Below are positions 1,160-17,299 of a stretch of DNA of 64,000 nt, in pieces (position 1 is the first letter of the stretch; every line of letters begins with the position of its first letter). The stretch lies in contig JAJRWA010000083.1 in NCBI GenBank assembly GCA_024277025.1, positions 1 to 64,000 on the forward strand, in the 5' to 3' direction. The translations under genes and the position numbers were made by a program. The notes under the pieces are model-generated. The model saw nothing but the letters and a program-made list of their open reading frames with translations, was not told the DNA's origin and did not search any database. This DNA comes from Candidatus Krumholzibacteriota bacterium (lineage in GTDB: Bacteria; Krumholzibacteriota; Krumholzibacteriia; LZORAL124-64-63).

Positions 1160-1247
1160 GATAATCTGTTATCATTAATTGGCCAGGTTTTTGCACAAGC
1201 CTCATCAATAGTGCCGCCAACGTGTCATTGTGCCCGAAAGGACCCTG

Positions 1248-4200
1248 ATGTCCCGCCATTCCGTTATGCCATTTGCCCTGATTCTGCTCGCGCTGCTGGT
1301 TCTGGTTCCCCTGACTGGGACCGCCAAGGCGGCCGGAGAACCGGATTTTGACGCCCTGCGTCGCCAGGCCCTGGAAAACGGGGGCCACTGGCAGGTCGAT
1401 GAGACCTTCAGCCGTTCGCTGACTCCCGAAAAGCGCGCCCACCTGCTGGGTTACGCGCCGCCGCCGGGCTATCAGGCCGAGCTGGATAGGCATCTGAAGA
1501 TCTACCCGCTGGACAAGGCGCTGCCCACGAGCCTGAACTGGCGTGATCTGGGCGGGATAACCCCGGTCAAGGACCAGGCTCAGTGCGGGTCCTGCTGGGC
1601 GTTCGCGGCCACCGGCGAGATGGAGGCCTTCGTCAAGATCTACTACGGCGTGGAATTGGACCTGTCGGAGCAGCAACTGGTCAGCTGCAACAACTACGGC
1701 GCCGGCTGTGACGGCGGCTGGGCTTCGGCGGCCTACTCGGTCTTTCAGCAGAACGGCGGCGTGCTGGAGAATTGCCATCCCTACCTGCAGGCCGACCCGC
1801 CCCTGGCACCGTGCGAACAGAACGGGCTCAAACCCTACGCCTGGGTCACGGGGTGGAATTCGATTGCCAACGATGTCGACCAGATCAAGGCCGCGCTGCA
1901 GGTCGGCCCGGTCTGTACCGGCATCGACGGCGGCCCGGACCTGCAGGCCTACGGCAGCGGCTGTTTCGACCTGCCGGGCAGTTCGGTCAACCATCTGGTG
2001 CTGATCGTCGGTTATGACGACCGCTCGTGCGGGGGCAACGGCGCCTGGCTGATCAAGAACAGCTGGGGACCGGGCTTCGGCGAAGGCGGCTATGTGTGGG
2101 TGGAGTACGGTGCGGCCATGACCGGCTTCAGCGTCTCCCAGCTGCAGTACACCGCACCGCCGGTCACCATCACCCTGGACAGCGAACTGGGTGCCGGTGG
2201 CCTGTATGGTGACCAGTTGACCGACATCAACTGGACGACCTACGGCGCGGCGGCGCCGACAGTCGACATCTGGCTGGGCATTGACGGGGAGTGTCACGAC
2301 CTGCTGGTCGCCGAGAACGTGCCCAACACGGGCACCTACAGCTGGGTGGTGCCCAATCTGGGCACCAACTACGCCAGCCTGGTGGTTTACCCCAGCGGCG
2401 GGACCAGCGAAGGCTACGGTCTGACGGCCGCCCCCATGCAGATTATCGGGCACAAGACGCGGTATGTCTCGGCCCTGGGCAGCGACACGCCGCCCTACGA
2501 GACCATCGCCACAGCGGCCCACAACATCGGCGACGCCGTCAGCGCCTGTACCGGCACCGACACCGTGCTGGTGGCCGGCGGCGACTACATCGGCAATGTC
2601 ACGGTCAGTTCGACCGTGCGGGTGATCGGTTCCTGGAACGAGTCGTTCACGGTGCAGGACATGGCGGCGCACCCGAGCCGGCTGCAGGGCGGCAACTCGG
2701 CCGTGCGCGTCTATTCGGGCGCCGCCGATTTCGGCTTGTTCGACAGCTTTGTCTTCCATGATTGCCTCGGCGGCTACTCGTCCGAACCGGTGGGCGGCCA
2801 GCACGGCGGCGCCGTCTACAGCAGCGGGGCATCGGTCACCTTCCGCAATTGCGAGTTCGTCAACAACCGGGCCGCCACCGGCAGCGGTATCGGCTATGGC
2901 GGGGCAGCCTGTGTGCTGGATGGAGCACCAGTCTTCGAGAATTGCGTGTTCACCGGCAACGTGGCCAGCAGTGGTGGCGCCGTCGGGGTCTTCGGGACGG
3001 CGGACGTTTCGTTCATCAATTGTGATTTCACGGGAAATGTGCTGAGCGACAGCCTGGATTCCAACACCGGTGGCGCCCTGCTTGTGCAGGACGGCGGGAT
3101 CAATCTCAGCGGCGGCTCACTGGTCAACAACGGGGCGGCCGGCCGTGGCGGCGCCCTGCATCTGACCAATGGTCAGGCCGTGTTCGATGGCGTTGAAGTG
3201 CGCAACAACCGGGCCCGCGGCGGCGGTGGCGCCATGACGACCACCGGCGGGTCACTGACCATAACGCGGTCGACGCTGGTGGAAAACACCACCCTGGGCG
3301 GCAACGGCGGCGCCATGGAAGCCTCGGGTACGGAGTTGACCCTGTCCAACGTGCGGCTGACCGGCAACACGGCCGCCAGTATCGGCGGCGGCGTCTGCGC
3401 CTTCTCCGGCACCGGACGCGTGGAGAGCTGCCAGTTCGACGCCAATGATGCGCCCAATGTCGGTGGCATCTTCTTTCTGGCCGGCGGTCCGACCACCGTG
3501 CGCAACAACATGGTGTTCGGCAACAGCGGCGGCGGCCTGCTGGTTTCCGGTGACGGGTCGCTGGAGGATTGGAACAACGTTTGGCAGAATACAGGCGGCG
3601 ACAACCTGAATACGACGCCGGGAATCCACTCCTGCAGCCTGGACCCCTTGTTTGTGGATGCGCCCGGCGGTGACTTCGGACTGGGACAGCATTCGCCCAA
3701 CGTGGACGGCGGCGCGGTTGACGCGAGTTGCCTGGATCCGGATGGTTCGGTGGCCGACATCGGCCTGAAGGGCGGCCCGCTGGCGGACTTCGTGGCCCCT
3801 GACCGGATAGCCGGTGCCGCGTTGACGGATCTGGGTGGCGGCACCTGGCAACTGGACTGGACCGCAGCGACGGCGCCGAACACCGACCACTACGTGGTGT
3901 ACCGCGACTCGACAGCCGTCTTTCGGCCCACGGCAGCCAAAGCCATGTCGATCGTGGCCCATCCGGCCCACAGCTACGTCGAGACACCACCGGCCGGCGA
4001 CTGGTACTATCTGGTTGCCGCCGTGGACACTGATGGCTACAGCGGCGGCTATTCGGACAAGGTCTACGTCAGCGGTGGCGCCATCAGTGGCGTGGCGGAC
4101 GGTGATCTGCCCCGGACGATGGCCATCACCGGCATCGCGCCCAACCCCTTCAACCCGATCACCACGATCTTCTACGATCTCCCCACGGCAGGCGAGGTCC

Positions 4201-4391
4201 GTCTCGGCGTCTATGACGTGCGGGGACGTCGAGTCCGCGAGCTGACGGCCGGTCAGGTTGCCGCCGGGCGGCACGAAGTCGTCTGGGACGGGCGGGATCA
4301 TGCCGGGCGCCTGAGCGCAGCCGGTGTCTACTTTGTGCTGCTGAAGGGGCCGCAGGGGACCACGACCAGCAAGATGGTATTGGCCAAATGA
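1248..4391 (+). CDS. Secreted papain-family (C1A) cysteine protease with beta-helix and FlgD-like C-terminal domain
   Basis: A 1047-residue exported protein. I chose ATG 1248 over an upstream in-frame GTG (1230) because AAAGGA lies 5 nt before it. A signal peptide fills residues 1-30. The papain triad is complete: Cys116 in CGSCWAF, His249 and Asn271 in NSWG. Residues about 400-830 are Gly/Asn-rich parallel beta-helix repeats (GGA, NN and CxF patterns) as in polymorphic membrane proteins and pectate-lyase-like folds. A fibronectin-III-like stretch follows (about 850-940), then a FlgD-like domain (about 960-1047) starting PNPFNP and ending SKMVLAK. Such tails resemble type IX secretion signals, so surface display or release is likely. 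The substrate is unknown. It is convergent with aroB, 6 nt away. Confidence 0.9.
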   Translation: MSRHSVMPFALILLALLVLVPLTGTAKAAGEPDFDALRRQALENGGHWQVDETFSRSLTPEKRAHLLGYAPPPGYQAELDRHLKIYPLDKALPTSLNWRDLGGITPVKDQAQCGSCWAFAATGEMEAFVKIYYGVELDLSEQQLVSCNNYGAGCDGGWASAAYSVFQQNGGVLENCHPYLQADPPLAPCEQNGLKPYAWVTGWNSIANDVDQIKAALQVGPVCTGIDGGPDLQAYGSGCFDLPGSSVNHLVLIVGYDDRSCGGNGAWLIKNSWGPGFGEGGYVWVEYGAAMTGFSVSQLQYTAPPVTITLDSELGAGGLYGDQLTDINWTTYGAAAPTVDIWLGIDGECHDLLVAENVPNTGTYSWVVPNLGTNYASLVVYPSGGTSEGYGLTAAPMQIIGHKTRYVSALGSDTPPYETIATAAHNIGDAVSACTGTDTVLVAGGDYIGNVTVSSTVRVIGSWNESFTVQDMAAHPSRLQGGNSAVRVYSGAADFGLFDSFVFHDCLGGYSSEPVGGQHGGAVYSSGASVTFRNCEFVNNRAATGSGIGYGGAACVLDGAPVFENCVFTGNVASSGGAVGVFGTADVSFINCDFTGNVLSDSLDSNTGGALLVQDGGINLSGGSLVNNGAAGRGGALHLTNGQAVFDGVEVRNNRARGGGGAMTTTGGSLTITRSTLVENTTLGGNGGAMEASGTELTLSNVRLTGNTAASIGGGVCAFSGTGRVESCQFDANDAPNVGGIFFLAGGPTTVRNNMVFGNSGGGLLVSGDGSLEDWNNVWQNTGGDNLNTTPGIHSCSLDPLFVDAPGGDFGLGQHSPNVDGGAVDASCLDPDGSVADIGLKGGPLADFVAPDRIAGAALTDLGGGTWQLDWTAATAPNTDHYVVYRDSTAVFRPTAAKAMSIVAHPAHSYVETPPAGDWYYLVAAVDTDGYSGGYSDKVYVSGGAISGVADGDLPRTMAITGIAPNPFNPITTIFYDLPTAGEVRLGVYDVRGRRVRELTAGQVAAGRHEVVWDGRDHAGRLSAAGVYFVLLKGPQGTTTSKMVLAK

Positions 4392-5777: not shown

Positions 5778-6359
5778 ATGTCAGGTAAAATGACGGAAAT
5801 CCGCTGGCACGCGCGAGGCGGACAGGGCGCCAAGACGGCGGCCATGTTCCTGGCCGAAGCCGTGCTGGAGAAGGGCAAGTTCGGGCAGGGTTTTCCCGAG
5901 TACGGACCCGAGCGCCGCGGCGCGCCCATGCGCGGTTACACCCGCATCGCTGACGCCCCGATCCGCCGCCACTGCATGATCGAACATCCCGGTATCGTTA
6001 TCGTCCTGGATCCGACCCTGATGGACAGCGCGGCCGCAGGCGTGACCGCGGGCACGGGCGAGGGCACGGTCTTCATCGTCAACACCACCGAGAAACCGGC
6101 CACCGTCGCCAGCAAGCTGGGCGTCAAGGGTGCCGTCGTGCACACGGTCGACGCCACGGGCATCGCCCTCGATACGATCGGCCGCCCCATTCCCAACATG
6201 CCGATGATCGGCGCCCTGCTGGCGGTCAACGACATGATGACCGTCGCCGAGCTGAAGAGCGCGCTGGTCGACCAGCTGAGCAGCAAGTTCTCCCAGGTGA
6301 TCATCGACGGCAACCTCAACGCGGTCGACCGCGCGAGCAAGGAGTTGGTGTCCGCATGA
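5778..6359 (+). CDS. porG: 2-oxoacid (pyruvate):ferredoxin oxidoreductase, gamma subunit
   Basis: A 193-residue PorG-type subunit. The HARGGQGAKTA start, the FPEYGPERRGAPMRGYTRI block and the later NMPMIGALL segment are typical of the gamma chain, which helps bind CoA in the alpha2-beta2-gamma2-delta2 enzyme. AAGGAG lies 8 nt before ATG 5778. It is the first gene of a porG-porD-porA-porB operon, the same order as in Thermotoga. The next gene's ATG overlaps its stop (ATGA at 6356-6359). Pyruvate is the likeliest substrate, but other 2-oxoacids cannot be excluded from sequence. Confidence 0.92.
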   Translation: MSGKMTEIRWHARGGQGAKTAAMFLAEAVLEKGKFGQGFPEYGPERRGAPMRGYTRIADAPIRRHCMIEHPGIVIVLDPTLMDSAAAGVTAGTGEGTVFIVNTTEKPATVASKLGVKGAVVHTVDATGIALDTIGRPIPNMPMIGALLAVNDMMTVAELKSALVDQLSSKFSQVIIDGNLNAVDRASKELVSA

Positions 6360-6664
6360 GCTTTCTCAGGAACGACGAACTGCACTAAGGCGGGATCATC
6401 CGCGAGGCGGGCAACGCCGCCGACTACAAGACCGGTGACTGGCGCACGTATGTGCCCGAGTTCATCGAGGCCAACTGCATCCAGTGCATGTTCTGCTGGA
6501 TCTACTGCCCCGATTCGGCCATCGACATCGATACCAGCGGTGACAAGCCCATCATGAAGGGCATCATCCTGGACCACTGCAAGGGCTGCGGCATCTGCGC
6601 CCACGAATGTCCTCCCGCCAAGAAGGGCAAGTCCGCCCTGGTCATGGTCCGGGAAGAGAAATAG
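6356..6664 (+). CDS. porD: 2-oxoacid:ferredoxin oxidoreductase, delta (2[4Fe-4S] ferredoxin) subunit, interrupted by in-frame TAA
   Basis: Starting at ATG 6356 (ATGA overlap with porG) the frame reads ten residues, hits TAA at 6386-6388, and continues in the same frame with GGIIREAGNAADYKTGDWR and then two [4Fe-4S] motifs (CIQCMFCWIYCP and CKGCGICAHECPP) to TAG 6662-6664. The sequence after the stop is normal PorD N-terminal sequence, so the ancestral gene clearly ran through it. Without read-through the first remaining start is GTG 6452, giving 70 residues that still hold both clusters but lack the usual N-terminal tail; no good ribosome site precedes it. The stop may be a mutation or a base-call error. 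Confidence 0.85.
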
Positions 6665-6690
6665 GCAACCCGCCGGAAAGGAATTGAGTC

Positions 6691-7866
6691 ATGGCACAGA
6701 AACTCGTGGCACTGTCCGGCAATGAGGCCGTGGCCTATGCGTTCAAGCAGGCCCGACCCCACGTTGCTGCGGCATTCCCGATCACGCCCCAGACCGAGAT
6801 GATGCACAAGTACGCCGAGTTCGTGGCCAACGGCGAATCGACCACGGAGATGATCCTGGTCGAATCGGAGCACTCGGCCATGAGTGCGGCCGTGGGTTCG
6901 GCCGCCGCCGGCGCCCGGACCTTCACCGCCACCAGCAGCGCGGGCTTTGCCCTGATGTGGGAAGTCGTGTACATCGCCGCTTCGTTGCGGCTGCCGATCT
7001 GCATGGCCCTGGTCAACCGCGCCCTGAGCGGCAACATCAACATCCACTGCGACCACTCCGACAGCATGGGCGGCCGCGACGCGGGCTGGATCCAACTGTT
7101 CGCCGAGAACGCGCAGGAAGCCTATGACAACGCGATCATGTCCTGGCGCATCGCCGAGCATATGGACGTGCGGCTGCCGACGATGGTCAACTACGACGGC
7201 TTCATCATCAGCCACACGGCCGACTCGCTGCACATGCTGTCGGACGAGGACGCGTACAAGTTCATCGGCAAGTACAAGGCCGACTACGCGCTGCTGGACG
7301 TGGAGAATCCGATCACCGTCGGGCCGCTGGATCTGACGGACTACTACTTCGAGCACAAGGCCAGCCAGTTGGCCGCCTATCCCCGGGCGCTGGAAGTCAT
7401 CAAGCAGGTCAGCGACGAATACGGCGATCTGACCGGCCGCTACTACGACCACTGCGAAGAGTACCTCATGGATGATGCGGAGATGGTCATGGTCATGCTC
7501 GGCAGCAGCGCCGGCACGGCCAAGGATGTCATCGACGAGTACCGTGAGAAGGGCGTCAAGGTGGGTCTGCTGAAGATCCGCACCTTCCGGCCCTTCCCGG
7601 TGGCCTATCTCGCCGAGAGACTGGCAGGCCGCAAGGCTGTCTGCGTCCTGGATCGTTCGGCCAGCTTCGGCGGCCAGGGCGGCCCCGTGTTCATGGAAGT
7701 CCGCAGCGCCATGTACGGCCTGCAGGTGCCGGTGCACGGCTACATCTACGGCCTCGGCGGTCGTGATTTCGATCTGGGCCAGGTGGCGACCGTGATCGAA
7801 GATCTGCAGAAGGTCGCCGCCGGCGGCGAAATGAACACCATCAACCTCCTGGGTATCAGGTCCTAG
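6691..7866 (+). CDS. porA: 2-oxoacid (pyruvate):ferredoxin oxidoreductase, alpha subunit
   Basis: A 391-residue alpha chain: GNEAVAYAFKQ at the start, AAFPITPQTEM (pyrimidine-binding region of the TPP enzyme), the E-SEHSAMSAAVGSAAAGAR block and a C-terminal transketolase-C-like part with FGGQGGPVF. Together with PorB it forms the active site that decarboxylates the 2-oxoacid to an acyl-CoA and passes electrons to ferredoxin. GGAAAGGA precedes ATG 6691; the gap to porD is 26 nt and to porB 17 nt. No damage is visible in this subunit. Confidence 0.94.
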   Translation: MAQKLVALSGNEAVAYAFKQARPHVAAAFPITPQTEMMHKYAEFVANGESTTEMILVESEHSAMSAAVGSAAAGARTFTATSSAGFALMWEVVYIAASLRLPICMALVNRALSGNINIHCDHSDSMGGRDAGWIQLFAENAQEAYDNAIMSWRIAEHMDVRLPTMVNYDGFIISHTADSLHMLSDEDAYKFIGKYKADYALLDVENPITVGPLDLTDYYFEHKASQLAAYPRALEVIKQVSDEYGDLTGRYYDHCEEYLMDDAEMVMVMLGSSAGTAKDVIDEYREKGVKVGLLKIRTFRPFPVAYLAERLAGRKAVCVLDRSASFGGQGGPVFMEVRSAMYGLQVPVHGYIYGLGGRDFDLGQVATVIEDLQKVAAGGEMNTINLLGIRS

Positions 7867-8974: not shown

Positions 8975-9502
8975 TTGCCGACTGCAGATGCGTCCGGATC
9001 CGAAGACACGACTGAAGAGATGCTGGAGCGGCATGGCCCGCTGGTGATGCAGGTCATCTGGAATCTGGTCCCGGTGGCGGACGACGCCCGGGACATCTTC
9101 CAGGATACTTTCCTGCAGCATTATCTGGCGATGCGCCAGGGACGGTCGATCCACAACCCGCGTGCCTGGCTTTGCCAGACGGCCCGGCATGGGGCTTTTC
9201 GCCTCTTTCGAGCCCGACAGTCGGCCCCGGACCGGGCGTCGAGCTGGGACGCGGATCAACACCCCGCGCCGGCGACAGATCCCGACCACCCGCTTCTGCT
9301 CGCCCGGATACGCACGGTCGCGGCGTCGCTGCCGGACCGCCAGGCTCAGGTCTTCATCATGCGTCACTTCGAACATCTGTCCTTTGCCGAGATTGCCGAC
9401 CAGTTGGGCTGCAGTGCCGCAGCAGCCCGGGCCAGCGGCTACAAGGCGCTGCAGAGAATCCGCTCCCTGCTGGGCGACAAGACGGAGGAATCGCATGTCT
9501 GA
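8975..9502 (+). CDS. RNA polymerase ECF-type sigma factor
   Basis: A 175-residue sigma70-family protein with the two-domain ECF layout. Region 2 contains VADDARDIFQDTFLQHYL and the helix NPRAWLCQTARH; region 4 contains LPDRQAQVFIMRHFEHLSFAEIADQLG followed by a helix-turn-helix. I take the TTG at 8975 as start because GGGAGG sits 5 nt upstream. The next gene starts inside it (8-nt overlap), the usual sign of a sigma/anti-sigma pair. Promoter targets and the inducing signal are not visible; regulation of the following envelope genes is plausible but unproven. Confidence 0.9.
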   Translation: MPTADASGSEDTTEEMLERHGPLVMQVIWNLVPVADDARDIFQDTFLQHYLAMRQGRSIHNPRAWLCQTARHGAFRLFRARQSAPDRASSWDADQHPAPATDPDHPLLLARIRTVAASLPDRQAQVFIMRHFEHLSFAEIADQLGCSAAAARASGYKALQRIRSLLGDKTEESHV

Positions 9503-11230: not shown

Positions 11231-11701
11231 ATGCTCAAATCCCGATCCCCGCTCAACTGGGCAGGACTGACTCTCCTGCTGCTGGCCCTGACCATGCCGG
11301 CCTCTGCCGCGACTATCTACACTGCGGTTCTGGACGGCCCCACCGCCAACACCCCGTCCCCGGCGACGGGCACCGCCACCCTGACCCTCAACGATGCCGA
11401 GACCGAGGTGCGCTACGAGATCCAGTTCAGCGAGTTGGTCGGTATCGAGCAGATGTCCCATTTCCACGCGTCGCTGCGGGGGATGGACGGGCCTATCCTG
11501 ACCACGCTGGCGGTGGGCTCGCCCAAGGTGGGGACCTGGGAGGTCGGCCCCTACGAAGTGGGCGAGCTGCAGGCGGGCCGCGTCTACATCAACGTCCACA
11601 CCGACCTGTATGCCGTCGGCGAGATCAGGGGCAACGTGGTGTTCTCCTCGGTGGCGAACGAGGCCGTGGCCTGGAGCGCGGTCAAGGCGCTGTACCGCTG
11701 A
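11231..11701 (+). CDS. Secreted CHRD-domain protein with C-terminal W-x-x-V-K-x-L-Y-R tag
   Basis: A 156-residue protein. ATG 11231 is chosen because GGAGGG lies 5 nt upstream; upstream in-frame starts lack one. A signal peptide fills residues 1-26 or so. The rest is a single CHRD domain: YTAVLDGP, GTATLTLNDAETEVRYEIQ, the histidine pair in MSHFH, and GRVYINVHTDLYAVGEIRGNV. CHRD proteins are extracellular beta proteins of poorly known function. The last nine residues, WSAVKALYR, match the end of the unrelated protein at 16682-17299. Confidence 0.86.
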   Translation: MLKSRSPLNWAGLTLLLLALTMPASAATIYTAVLDGPTANTPSPATGTATLTLNDAETEVRYEIQFSELVGIEQMSHFHASLRGMDGPILTTLAVGSPKVGTWEVGPYEVGELQAGRVYINVHTDLYAVGEIRGNVVFSSVANEAVAWSAVKALYR

Positions 11702-16681: not shown

Positions 16682-17299
16682 ATGAAATTTGCGCTCGCTC
16701 GAATTTTTCTGCTGACAATGTTTGCTGCCGCCCTGCCGGCCGGGGCCACCCTGGCCCTGGATGACAATGTACTCGGTCTCTACTACGACGCCGACGCCAG
16801 CATCCACGAAGTCGAGGTGGCGCCCAACTCGACCCACTCCCTCTACCTGGTCCTGCTCAATCCGGTCAACGAGGATTTCGACGGTGGCGGTATCCGCGAC
16901 GTCGAATACGTGTCGGGTTTCGAGTGCGCCATCGAACATCCGAGCGGCGACATGCTGCTGGGCATGACCTTCCCCACCCAGGGCCTCAATCTGGGCACGC
17001 CGGAAAACATCGTGGCGGGCTTTGCCACGGCCGTCCCGGTCAGCAGCCAGCGCGCGGCCATGCTGGCGACCCTGACCGTGTTGACGATGGGCAACAACCC
17101 GGAGGGCTATCGGCTGGTGCCGACTGCGGCCGCCACCCATGCCAACACGATGGCCTATGTGGACTCCGATGATCCGGACGACAACATCGTCGACATGGCG
17201 CCGGTCTCCGGCTCGTTCGACCGGCCGGTCTTCACCTTTGGCGACTACACTGTCGATCGCGTGGCCAAGTGGGGCGAAGTGAAGTCGCTGTACCGCTAG
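16682..17299 (+). CDS. Exported protein of unknown function with C-terminal W-x-x-V-K-x-L-Y-R tag
   Basis: A 205-residue protein with GGAGAG upstream of ATG 16682 and a signal peptide (cleavage near TLALDD). The mature part is acidic and beta-rich (DDNVLGLYYDADASI, GGGIRDVEYVSGFECAIEHP), reminiscent of cohesin- or dockerin-less secreted proteins, but I do not recognise a family. It ends VAKWGEVKSLYR; the same ending (W-x-x-V-K-x-L-Y-R) terminates the CHRD protein at 11231-11701. The gene is transcribed divergently from marR-yceI. Confidence 0.75.
   Translation: MKFALARIFLLTMFAAALPAGATLALDDNVLGLYYDADASIHEVEVAPNSTHSLYLVLLNPVNEDFDGGGIRDVEYVSGFECAIEHPSGDMLLGMTFPTQGLNLGTPENIVAGFATAVPVSSQRAAMLATLTVLTMGNNPEGYRLVPTAAATHANTMAYVDSDDPDDNIVDMAPVSGSFDRPVFTFGDYTVDRVAKWGEVKSLYR

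Follow-up and report, generated by a model that had tools for sequence, protein, structure and literature searches.

A short C-terminal tag on exported proteins of Krumholzibacteriota and Eisenbacteria, with a PorU-like C25 protease as its candidate partner

The PEP-CTERM, GlyGly-CTERM and MYXO-CTERM systems each serve many cargo proteins with one dedicated enzyme (PMC1569441, PMC3237569, PMC11980579); their tags contain a transmembrane segment, and the enzymes, exosortase, rhombosortase and myxosortase, are intramembrane ones. The C-terminal domains of type IX cargo, known as type A (TIGR04183, PorV/PorU) and type B (TIGR04131, PorP/SprF), are built of strands and span about 40-235 residues (PMC11969387, PMC12618676), those of type B depending on separate shuttle proteins (PMC12618676). 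Short type IX signals of ~40-55 aa exist in Prevotella intermedia, and the last 22 residues of HBP35 are enough for its secretion (PMC11969387); type IX signals in general tolerate C-terminal extensions but not the loss of their last residues (PMC11285876). Against this background a further class of signal is plausible, though none of those known is as short as the tag described here.

The tag comprises 9-16 residues. Like the type IX domains, including the short ones of P. intermedia, it is C-terminal, accompanies a Sec signal peptide, is portable, tolerates extensions (PMC11285876) and coexists with SprA and a C25-family sortase; unlike them, it has no beta-sandwich, is predicted to form a helix rather than strands, matches neither TIGR04183 nor TIGR04131, does not resemble type A or B domains in sequence, and is linked not to PorU but to a separate clade of C25 proteases. 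With the PEP-CTERM/exosortase, GlyGly-CTERM/rhombosortase and MYXO-CTERM/myxosortase pairs it has in common a many-to-one C-terminal tag, exported cargo and a candidate dedicated enzyme, but it lacks their transmembrane segment and is paired with a C25 cysteine protease. It is thus a member neither of the type A or B type IX domains nor of the membrane-anchored CTERM signals, although by analogy it would work much as they do, as a many-to-one address tag. In the literature on Krumholzibacteria/Krumholzibacteriota, Eisenbacteria and Latescibacteria that our search covered, which leaves most subscription journals outside, we found neither a description of the motif nor type IX sorting.

The tag in the window and in its genome

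The window analyzed here is the first 64,000 nucleotides of a contig (JAJRWA010000083.1) from a Candidatus Krumholzibacteriota bacterium, and the features of interest within it are the following.

1230..4391, forward strand (+): exported papain-family (C1)/beta-helix protein with an FlgD-like (type IX type) C-terminal domain (PF00112, PF13229, PF13860)
11231..11701, forward strand (+): CHRD-domain secreted protein with the tag, 156 aa from the ATG at 11231, signal peptide MLKSRSPLNWAGLTLLLLALTMPASA (PF07452, E 2.5e-20)
11672..11701, forward strand (+): C-terminal tag WSAVKALYR and stop codon (sequence; genome-wide pattern)
16682..17299, forward strand (+): secreted protein with a predicted cohesin-like beta-sandwich and the tag (phmmer, AlphaFold2 model, Foldseek)
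17270..17299, forward strand (+): C-terminal tag WGEVKSLYR and stop codon (sequence pattern; AlphaFold2 model: short helix, residues 197-203)

The original prediction, made from the letters of the window alone, held that two exported proteins of different fold end in W-x-x-V-K-x-L-Y-R. Both tags are indeed located at the C-termini, and the hosts do differ, one being a CHRD protein (PF07452) and the other predicted to be cohesin-like. The position given for the first tag was right to within two bases: 11674 is the third base of the Trp codon, which begins at 11672, so that the nine codons run from 11672 to 11698 and, with the stop at 11699-11701, close the CHRD protein. Those of the second occupy 17270-17296. 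Also borne out was the distinction from the FlgD-like tail of the protein at 1230-4391, which matches PF13860 (E 1.5e-9) and represents another kind of C-terminal signal in the same genome. Within the window the pattern W-x-x-[VIM]-K-x-[LMIVF]-[YF]-[RKQ...]-stop matches these two proteins only, with 0 matches in 100 dinucleotide shuffles. Pfam and NCBIfam hold no model matching either tail; an NCBIfam profile search of the two window proteins up to E 10, TIGR04183 and TIGR04131 included, returned no match, and Pfam none for the protein at 16682-17299. Homologues of the CHRD protein end in versions of the same tag, SWGAVKALFQ in one from the same genome (L019, 60% identity) and TWGKVKSLYR in a more distant one (L051, 39% identity). 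A short distance upstream of the CHRD gene lies a gene for an ECF-type sigma factor (8975-9502; Sigma70 r2 and r4), whose 3' end is overlapped by an ORF that could encode its anti-sigma factor.

Genome-wide counts were obtained by pattern searches. The search for the tag at C-termini that had been proposed at the outset yielded 20 proteins of the window's own genome ending in W-x-x-[VI]-K-x-[LMIV]-[YF]-[RQ] when the stop was part of the pattern, with 0 in the reversed control. Dropping the stop also gave 20 matches, 19 of them immediately preceding a stop codon and the twentieth (contig C141) belonging to a reading frame of 26 aa whose end, ...STVKIMYRQTL, overshoots the tag by three residues. 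A looser pattern gave 24 matches versus 2 in the control, and the additional ones, SWSSVKATYR and SWGSIKSTYR among them, likewise close exported proteins. When the ORFs picked from every fetched locus (795,252 residues) were scanned for the core [ST]-W-G-x-[VI]-K, it was found 202 times within 12 residues of the C-terminus and once internally; the figure of 202 is inflated by selection, since many loci were fetched for a tag, but the scarcity of internal matches is unaffected by it. The observation is real and far from chance. Some tagged proteins, those of the cohesin-like family, are homologous to each other, which could suggest that the likeness of the tails reflects chance or shared ancestry; given the unrelated folds that carry the tag (CHRD, cohesin-like, beta-helix, X25/CBM20), the empty reversed controls and the 202 to 1 C-terminal bias, we regard the probability of such an origin as next to negligible, the own-genome counts and the positional bias ruling it out.

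Alignment of 243 non-redundant tails on their Trp gave the per-position consensus (in percent) V48/T18-A37/P33-T32/V24-E52-x-x-S56/T34-W87/F12-G82-x-V72/I25-K97-S37/A37-L77-Y74/F18-R72, or V-[AP]-[TV]-E-x-x-[ST]-W-G-x-[VI]-K-[AS]-L-[YF]-R in short form. The Trp stands nine residues from the C-terminus in 210 of 277 tails. Of the remainder, 36 fall short of this by one residue and 31 extend past it; a free Arg at the C-terminus is therefore the rule rather than a requirement. In the AlphaFold2 model of the protein at 16682-17299, the domain is predicted with pLDDT above 90 over most of its length, and the tag forms a separate helix (residues 197-203, pLDDT about 60) behind a low-confidence linker (below 50 at residues 190-193). 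The model of the CHRD protein, of low confidence overall, also ends with a short helix.

Tagged cargo and its distribution

A lack of C-terminal enrichment on exported proteins had been set beforehand as the refuting outcome. That refutation fails, because 133 of 139 tagged ORFs begin with a signal-peptide-like N-terminus compared with 282 of 622 untagged ORFs of the same loci (Fisher p 3e-32, with signal peptides called by a permissive home-made rule). In a set of 275 tagged ORFs with a median length of 223 aa, a signal peptide is present in 256, a lipobox in 7 and a C-terminal hydrophobic or membrane segment in 1; measured against the 256 with a signal peptide, that single case agrees with the earlier claim that the tag does without a membrane segment.

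The carriers belong to unrelated folds, namely CHRD, X25/CBM20, beta-helix and cohesin-like, and by eye also include a TlpA/thioredoxin-like protein (L013) and a calcium-binding-repeat protein (L018). Tag and FlgD-like tail can replace one another on related cargo: homologous beta-helix proteins end in the tag or in the FlgD-like type IX tail (L161 vs L079/L098), and two neighboring genes, L052:4077-6293 with an FlgD-like end and 6290-6985 with the tag, encode ~220 common N-terminal residues at 38% identity. By a crude rule, no ORF has both signals. The short, C-terminal and basic-ended tag might also serve a periplasmic function, such as being recognized by a protease or a factor in quality control, as the TlpA/thioredoxin-like carrier could be taken to indicate. 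We consider this very improbable, as the cargo is of secretion type (CHRD, beta-helix, X25/CBM20, cohesin-like), the protease linked to it, described below, has an FlgD-like domain, and HBP35 provides a precedent for thioredoxin-type type IX cargo.

Of 80 genomes sampled from the window's phylum, Krumholzibacteriota, 78 have the strict tag, at 1 to 32 copies with reversed controls at or near zero, as do 39 of 47 genomes from an Eisenbacteria phylum, that of G096. Among the GTDB matches listed, carriers are Krumholzibacteriia/Krumholzibacteriota, Eisenbacteria and some MAGs under other names; the highest copy number among named genomes is 59, in an Eisenbacteria MAG, and a Coatesbacteria genome has 6. 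Single chance matches occur in Pedobacter, Piscirickettsiaceae, Methylococcaceae and Doudnabacteria genomes, each sampled because of that match. Presence or absence of the strict tag is a poor profile, as G037, which seems tag-less, has tags without the final Arg (DATWGAIKALY), and these adjoin its copy of the protease described below.

Bacteroidota failed as a clean negative control. About one-third of the sampled genomes (63 of 198) have one to three matches, many with W-G-[SM]-I-K-x-[LM]-F-R in common and many in one conserved secreted protein, and the 12 carriers fetched form one secreted family of ~135 aa, Fn3-like by eye, that ends in [RK]-[TS]-W-G-x-I-K-x-[LM]-F-R. The motif is consequently not restricted to the two high-copy phyla. 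In the loci of this family (L274-L285, relatives of G080) there is one such protein per genome; in two of them, L282 and L285, a SpoIID/LytB gene adjoins the tagged gene, and six have a Maf-like gene close by.

An apparent spread to Latescibacterota proved mostly a naming artefact, for the MAGs that yielded L050 and L085 correspond in size, tag counts or identical contigs to genomes of the window's phylum: G088, the source of L085, shares a contig with G031, L242 and L197 carrying the same genes, and G086 resembles G074. Tag-bearing contigs also turned up in ill-fitting MAGs labeled Planctomycetota (SJ778, L080), Verrucomicrobia (L116) and Fibrobacter (L052), bins that are probably mislabeled or contaminated. 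In G093, all three tags are on one contig, and the protease described below is absent.

A second C25 protease linked to tagged genes

Type IX components accompany the tag. Of 78 genomes from the window's phylum, 66 contain SprA_N (PF14349), against 0 of 14 control genomes, and in 53 of the 78 PorU (NF033707) scores above its cut-off. The window's own genome has both, SprA at L184:6416-12922 (TIGR04189, 503 bits against a cut-off of 200) and a true PorU on contig C246 (NF033707, 485 bits against 420). Taken with the FlgD-tailed papain-family protein of the window, they indicate that a type IX system exists beside the tag. The search detected no SprA in some tag-bearing genomes, such as G014, G031 and G051, possibly for technical reasons.

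In low-tag genomes, a tagged gene was first seen beside a gene for a C25 protease with an FlgD-like tail (L158, L165). This protease, here called C25B, is a second PorU-like C25 cysteine protease (PF01364, E 8e-47), and its catalytic His (QGHA) and Cys (GCH) are invariant in 16 sequences. It resembles PorU and the putative PorU2 (NF052324) in combining a C25 domain with a large N-terminal region and an FlgD-like C-terminal domain, but differs from both in its scores, its best NCBIfam match being NF033707 at 131-168 bits (168 for the own-genome copy), far below the cut-off of 420 and also far below that of NF052324 (450). It forms its own clade apart from PorU (FastTree support 0.88 for C25B and 0.995 for PorU, on 427 columns of the C25 domain and with only 10 PorU sequences passing the length filter), and the low-tag genomes that bear it have a true PorU elsewhere. 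A third group of C25 proteases (L231-L233), of 1600-1700 aa with FlgD-like ends and no tagged neighbors, is probably type IX cargo rather than sortase.

In the window's own genome, C25B lies directly after two tagged genes on contig C13 (L214).

L214:366-992: tagged protein, ending SFGSVKSLFR
L214:1376-2008: tagged protein, ending SWGGVKALFR
L214:2023-6585: C25B, followed by a SpoIID/LytB gene

The protein at 16682-17299 is a paralogue of the one encoded directly upstream of C25B (L214:1376-2008; phmmer E 1.3e-18), which ties the window to this cluster. The original prediction had supposed a matching processing enzyme elsewhere in the genome, and C25B, a member of the PorU sortase superfamily, is a candidate for it on the grounds of gene position and family. 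A SpoIID/LytB gene also stands 3' of C25B in L200, L215 and L217, as in L214.

The comparison of loci that followed took in 36 C25B regions from Krumholzibacteriota, further ones from other genomes and, as a control, 20 PorU regions. Counting loci with at least 1.5 kb upstream of C25B, 31 of 39 C25B loci have at least one tagged gene in the same orientation no more than 3 kb upstream, compared with 0 of 26 PorU/other C25 loci (p 2e-11; with one duplicate and the four loci already seen left out, 5e-10). In Eisenbacteria the linkage is looser: tagged genes adjoin C25B or lie near it in L290 and L291 and are 4-8 kb away in L235 and L236, the other loci having none nearby. Most tagged genes are away from C25B, and randomly sampled ones share only FlgD-tail proteins and cargo paralogues as neighbors. 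Most of the tag-bearing Eisenbacteria examined have full-length C25B. Two tag-less Eisenbacteria genomes lack it, as do Pedobacter and four further genomes whose tag match is due to chance, and three Eisenbacteria genomes without the strict tag (G124, G145, G146) possess it. The tagged Bacteroidota genomes tested, with one tagged protein each, have no C25B and only C25 proteases at PorU-level scores, so that the pairing of tag and C25B is not universal.

Since the linked genes mostly belong to one cohesin-like family, the linkage could concern that cargo rather than the tag. The tag would then be sorted by ordinary type IX machinery (PorV/PorU) or by some other enzyme, with a different role for C25B, as the tagged Bacteroidota and the exchange of tag and FlgD-like tail on homologous cargo would allow. 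We hold this to be quite unlikely, given that none of 21 PorU regions has a tag nearby and that, in both large phyla, most of the genomes rich in tags have C25B.

A proposed sorting signal and its cohesin-like cargo

Judged from sequence, the initial reading of the tag as a sorting or anchoring signal gains support from its exclusively C-terminal position, its almost exclusive occurrence on exported cargo, its portability and its multiple copies in two phyla. It looks like a surface address label because it is terminal on unrelated exported proteins and its genes lie beside a second sortase-type protease. On balance, we lean toward the view that the tag directs cargo into a type IX-like pathway as a short C-terminal sorting signal without a membrane segment, and that C25B is probably the sortase dedicated to it. 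Cargo would be exported by Sec via its ordinary signal peptide and then follow a type IX route, with translocation by SprA; at the surface, C25B would recognize the tag and probably cut it off, with covalent anchoring of the cargo, and this class of tag would be used in phyla of the FCB superphylum. We put somewhat less than even weight on a wider version, an FCB pathway in which a minimal helical C-terminal signal and its own C25 sortase would run parallel to PorU and the beta-sandwich signals of type IX, would display cohesin-like proteins among others, and would have in Bacteroidota an older form limited to one protein, its gene lying beside SpoIID/LytB.

If the sorting proposal is right, the fate of many unannotated exported proteins becomes predictable in phyla with few or no cultured members, type IX-like sorting would be possible without a folded beta-sandwich signal, and PorU-type sortases would have diversified with their own signals, much like sortases and exosortases. 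In any case, a compact, portable tag and a candidate protease are offered for testing.

As for the linked cargo, the best PDB match of the model for the protein at 16682-17299 is a cohesin (Foldseek E 1.7e-3, prob 1.0), with no match to the Pfam cohesin family; at a Foldseek E of about 2e-3, the likeness is a lead only. Secreted proteins with dockerin-like C-termini, assigned by eye with weak Pfam support, are encoded near cohesin-like tagged proteins and C25B.

L158:6754-7398; L165:8637-9284; L202:10208-10873; L208:13702-14340; L290:9164-9757: dockerin-like secreted proteins

Some of the cargo may plausibly be displayed on the surface through cohesin-dockerin contacts. ScaE of Ruminococcus flavefaciens, a sortase-anchored cohesin, likewise joins a cohesin-type protein to a C-terminal sorting signal, but it belongs to a Gram-positive LPXTG-type system, whereas the cohesin-like fold here is only predicted.

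These clusters, the detached and amphipathic helix of the model and the tolerance for residues past the tag would also suit an uncleaved docking peptide, whose helix would attach to a protein at the surface (C25B itself, a PorV-like barrel or an assembly factor) and tether the cargo there without a covalent bond, in the manner of a dockerin. We regard such docking as unlikely, for the linked gene encodes a sortase-superfamily protease with intact catalytic residues, and strict C-terminal placement is more typical of a sorting signal.

At the other end of the cargo, by a crude rule, A-x-A followed by Gln near the end of the signal peptide is commoner in tagged than in untagged exported proteins (84 of 256 vs 101 of 755). 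A peptidase M28 family gene, possibly for a glutaminyl cyclase, lies directly 3' of SprA in distant members of the phylum.

L184:12912-13862; L185:6563-7516; L188:12709-13644: peptidase M28 family genes after SprA
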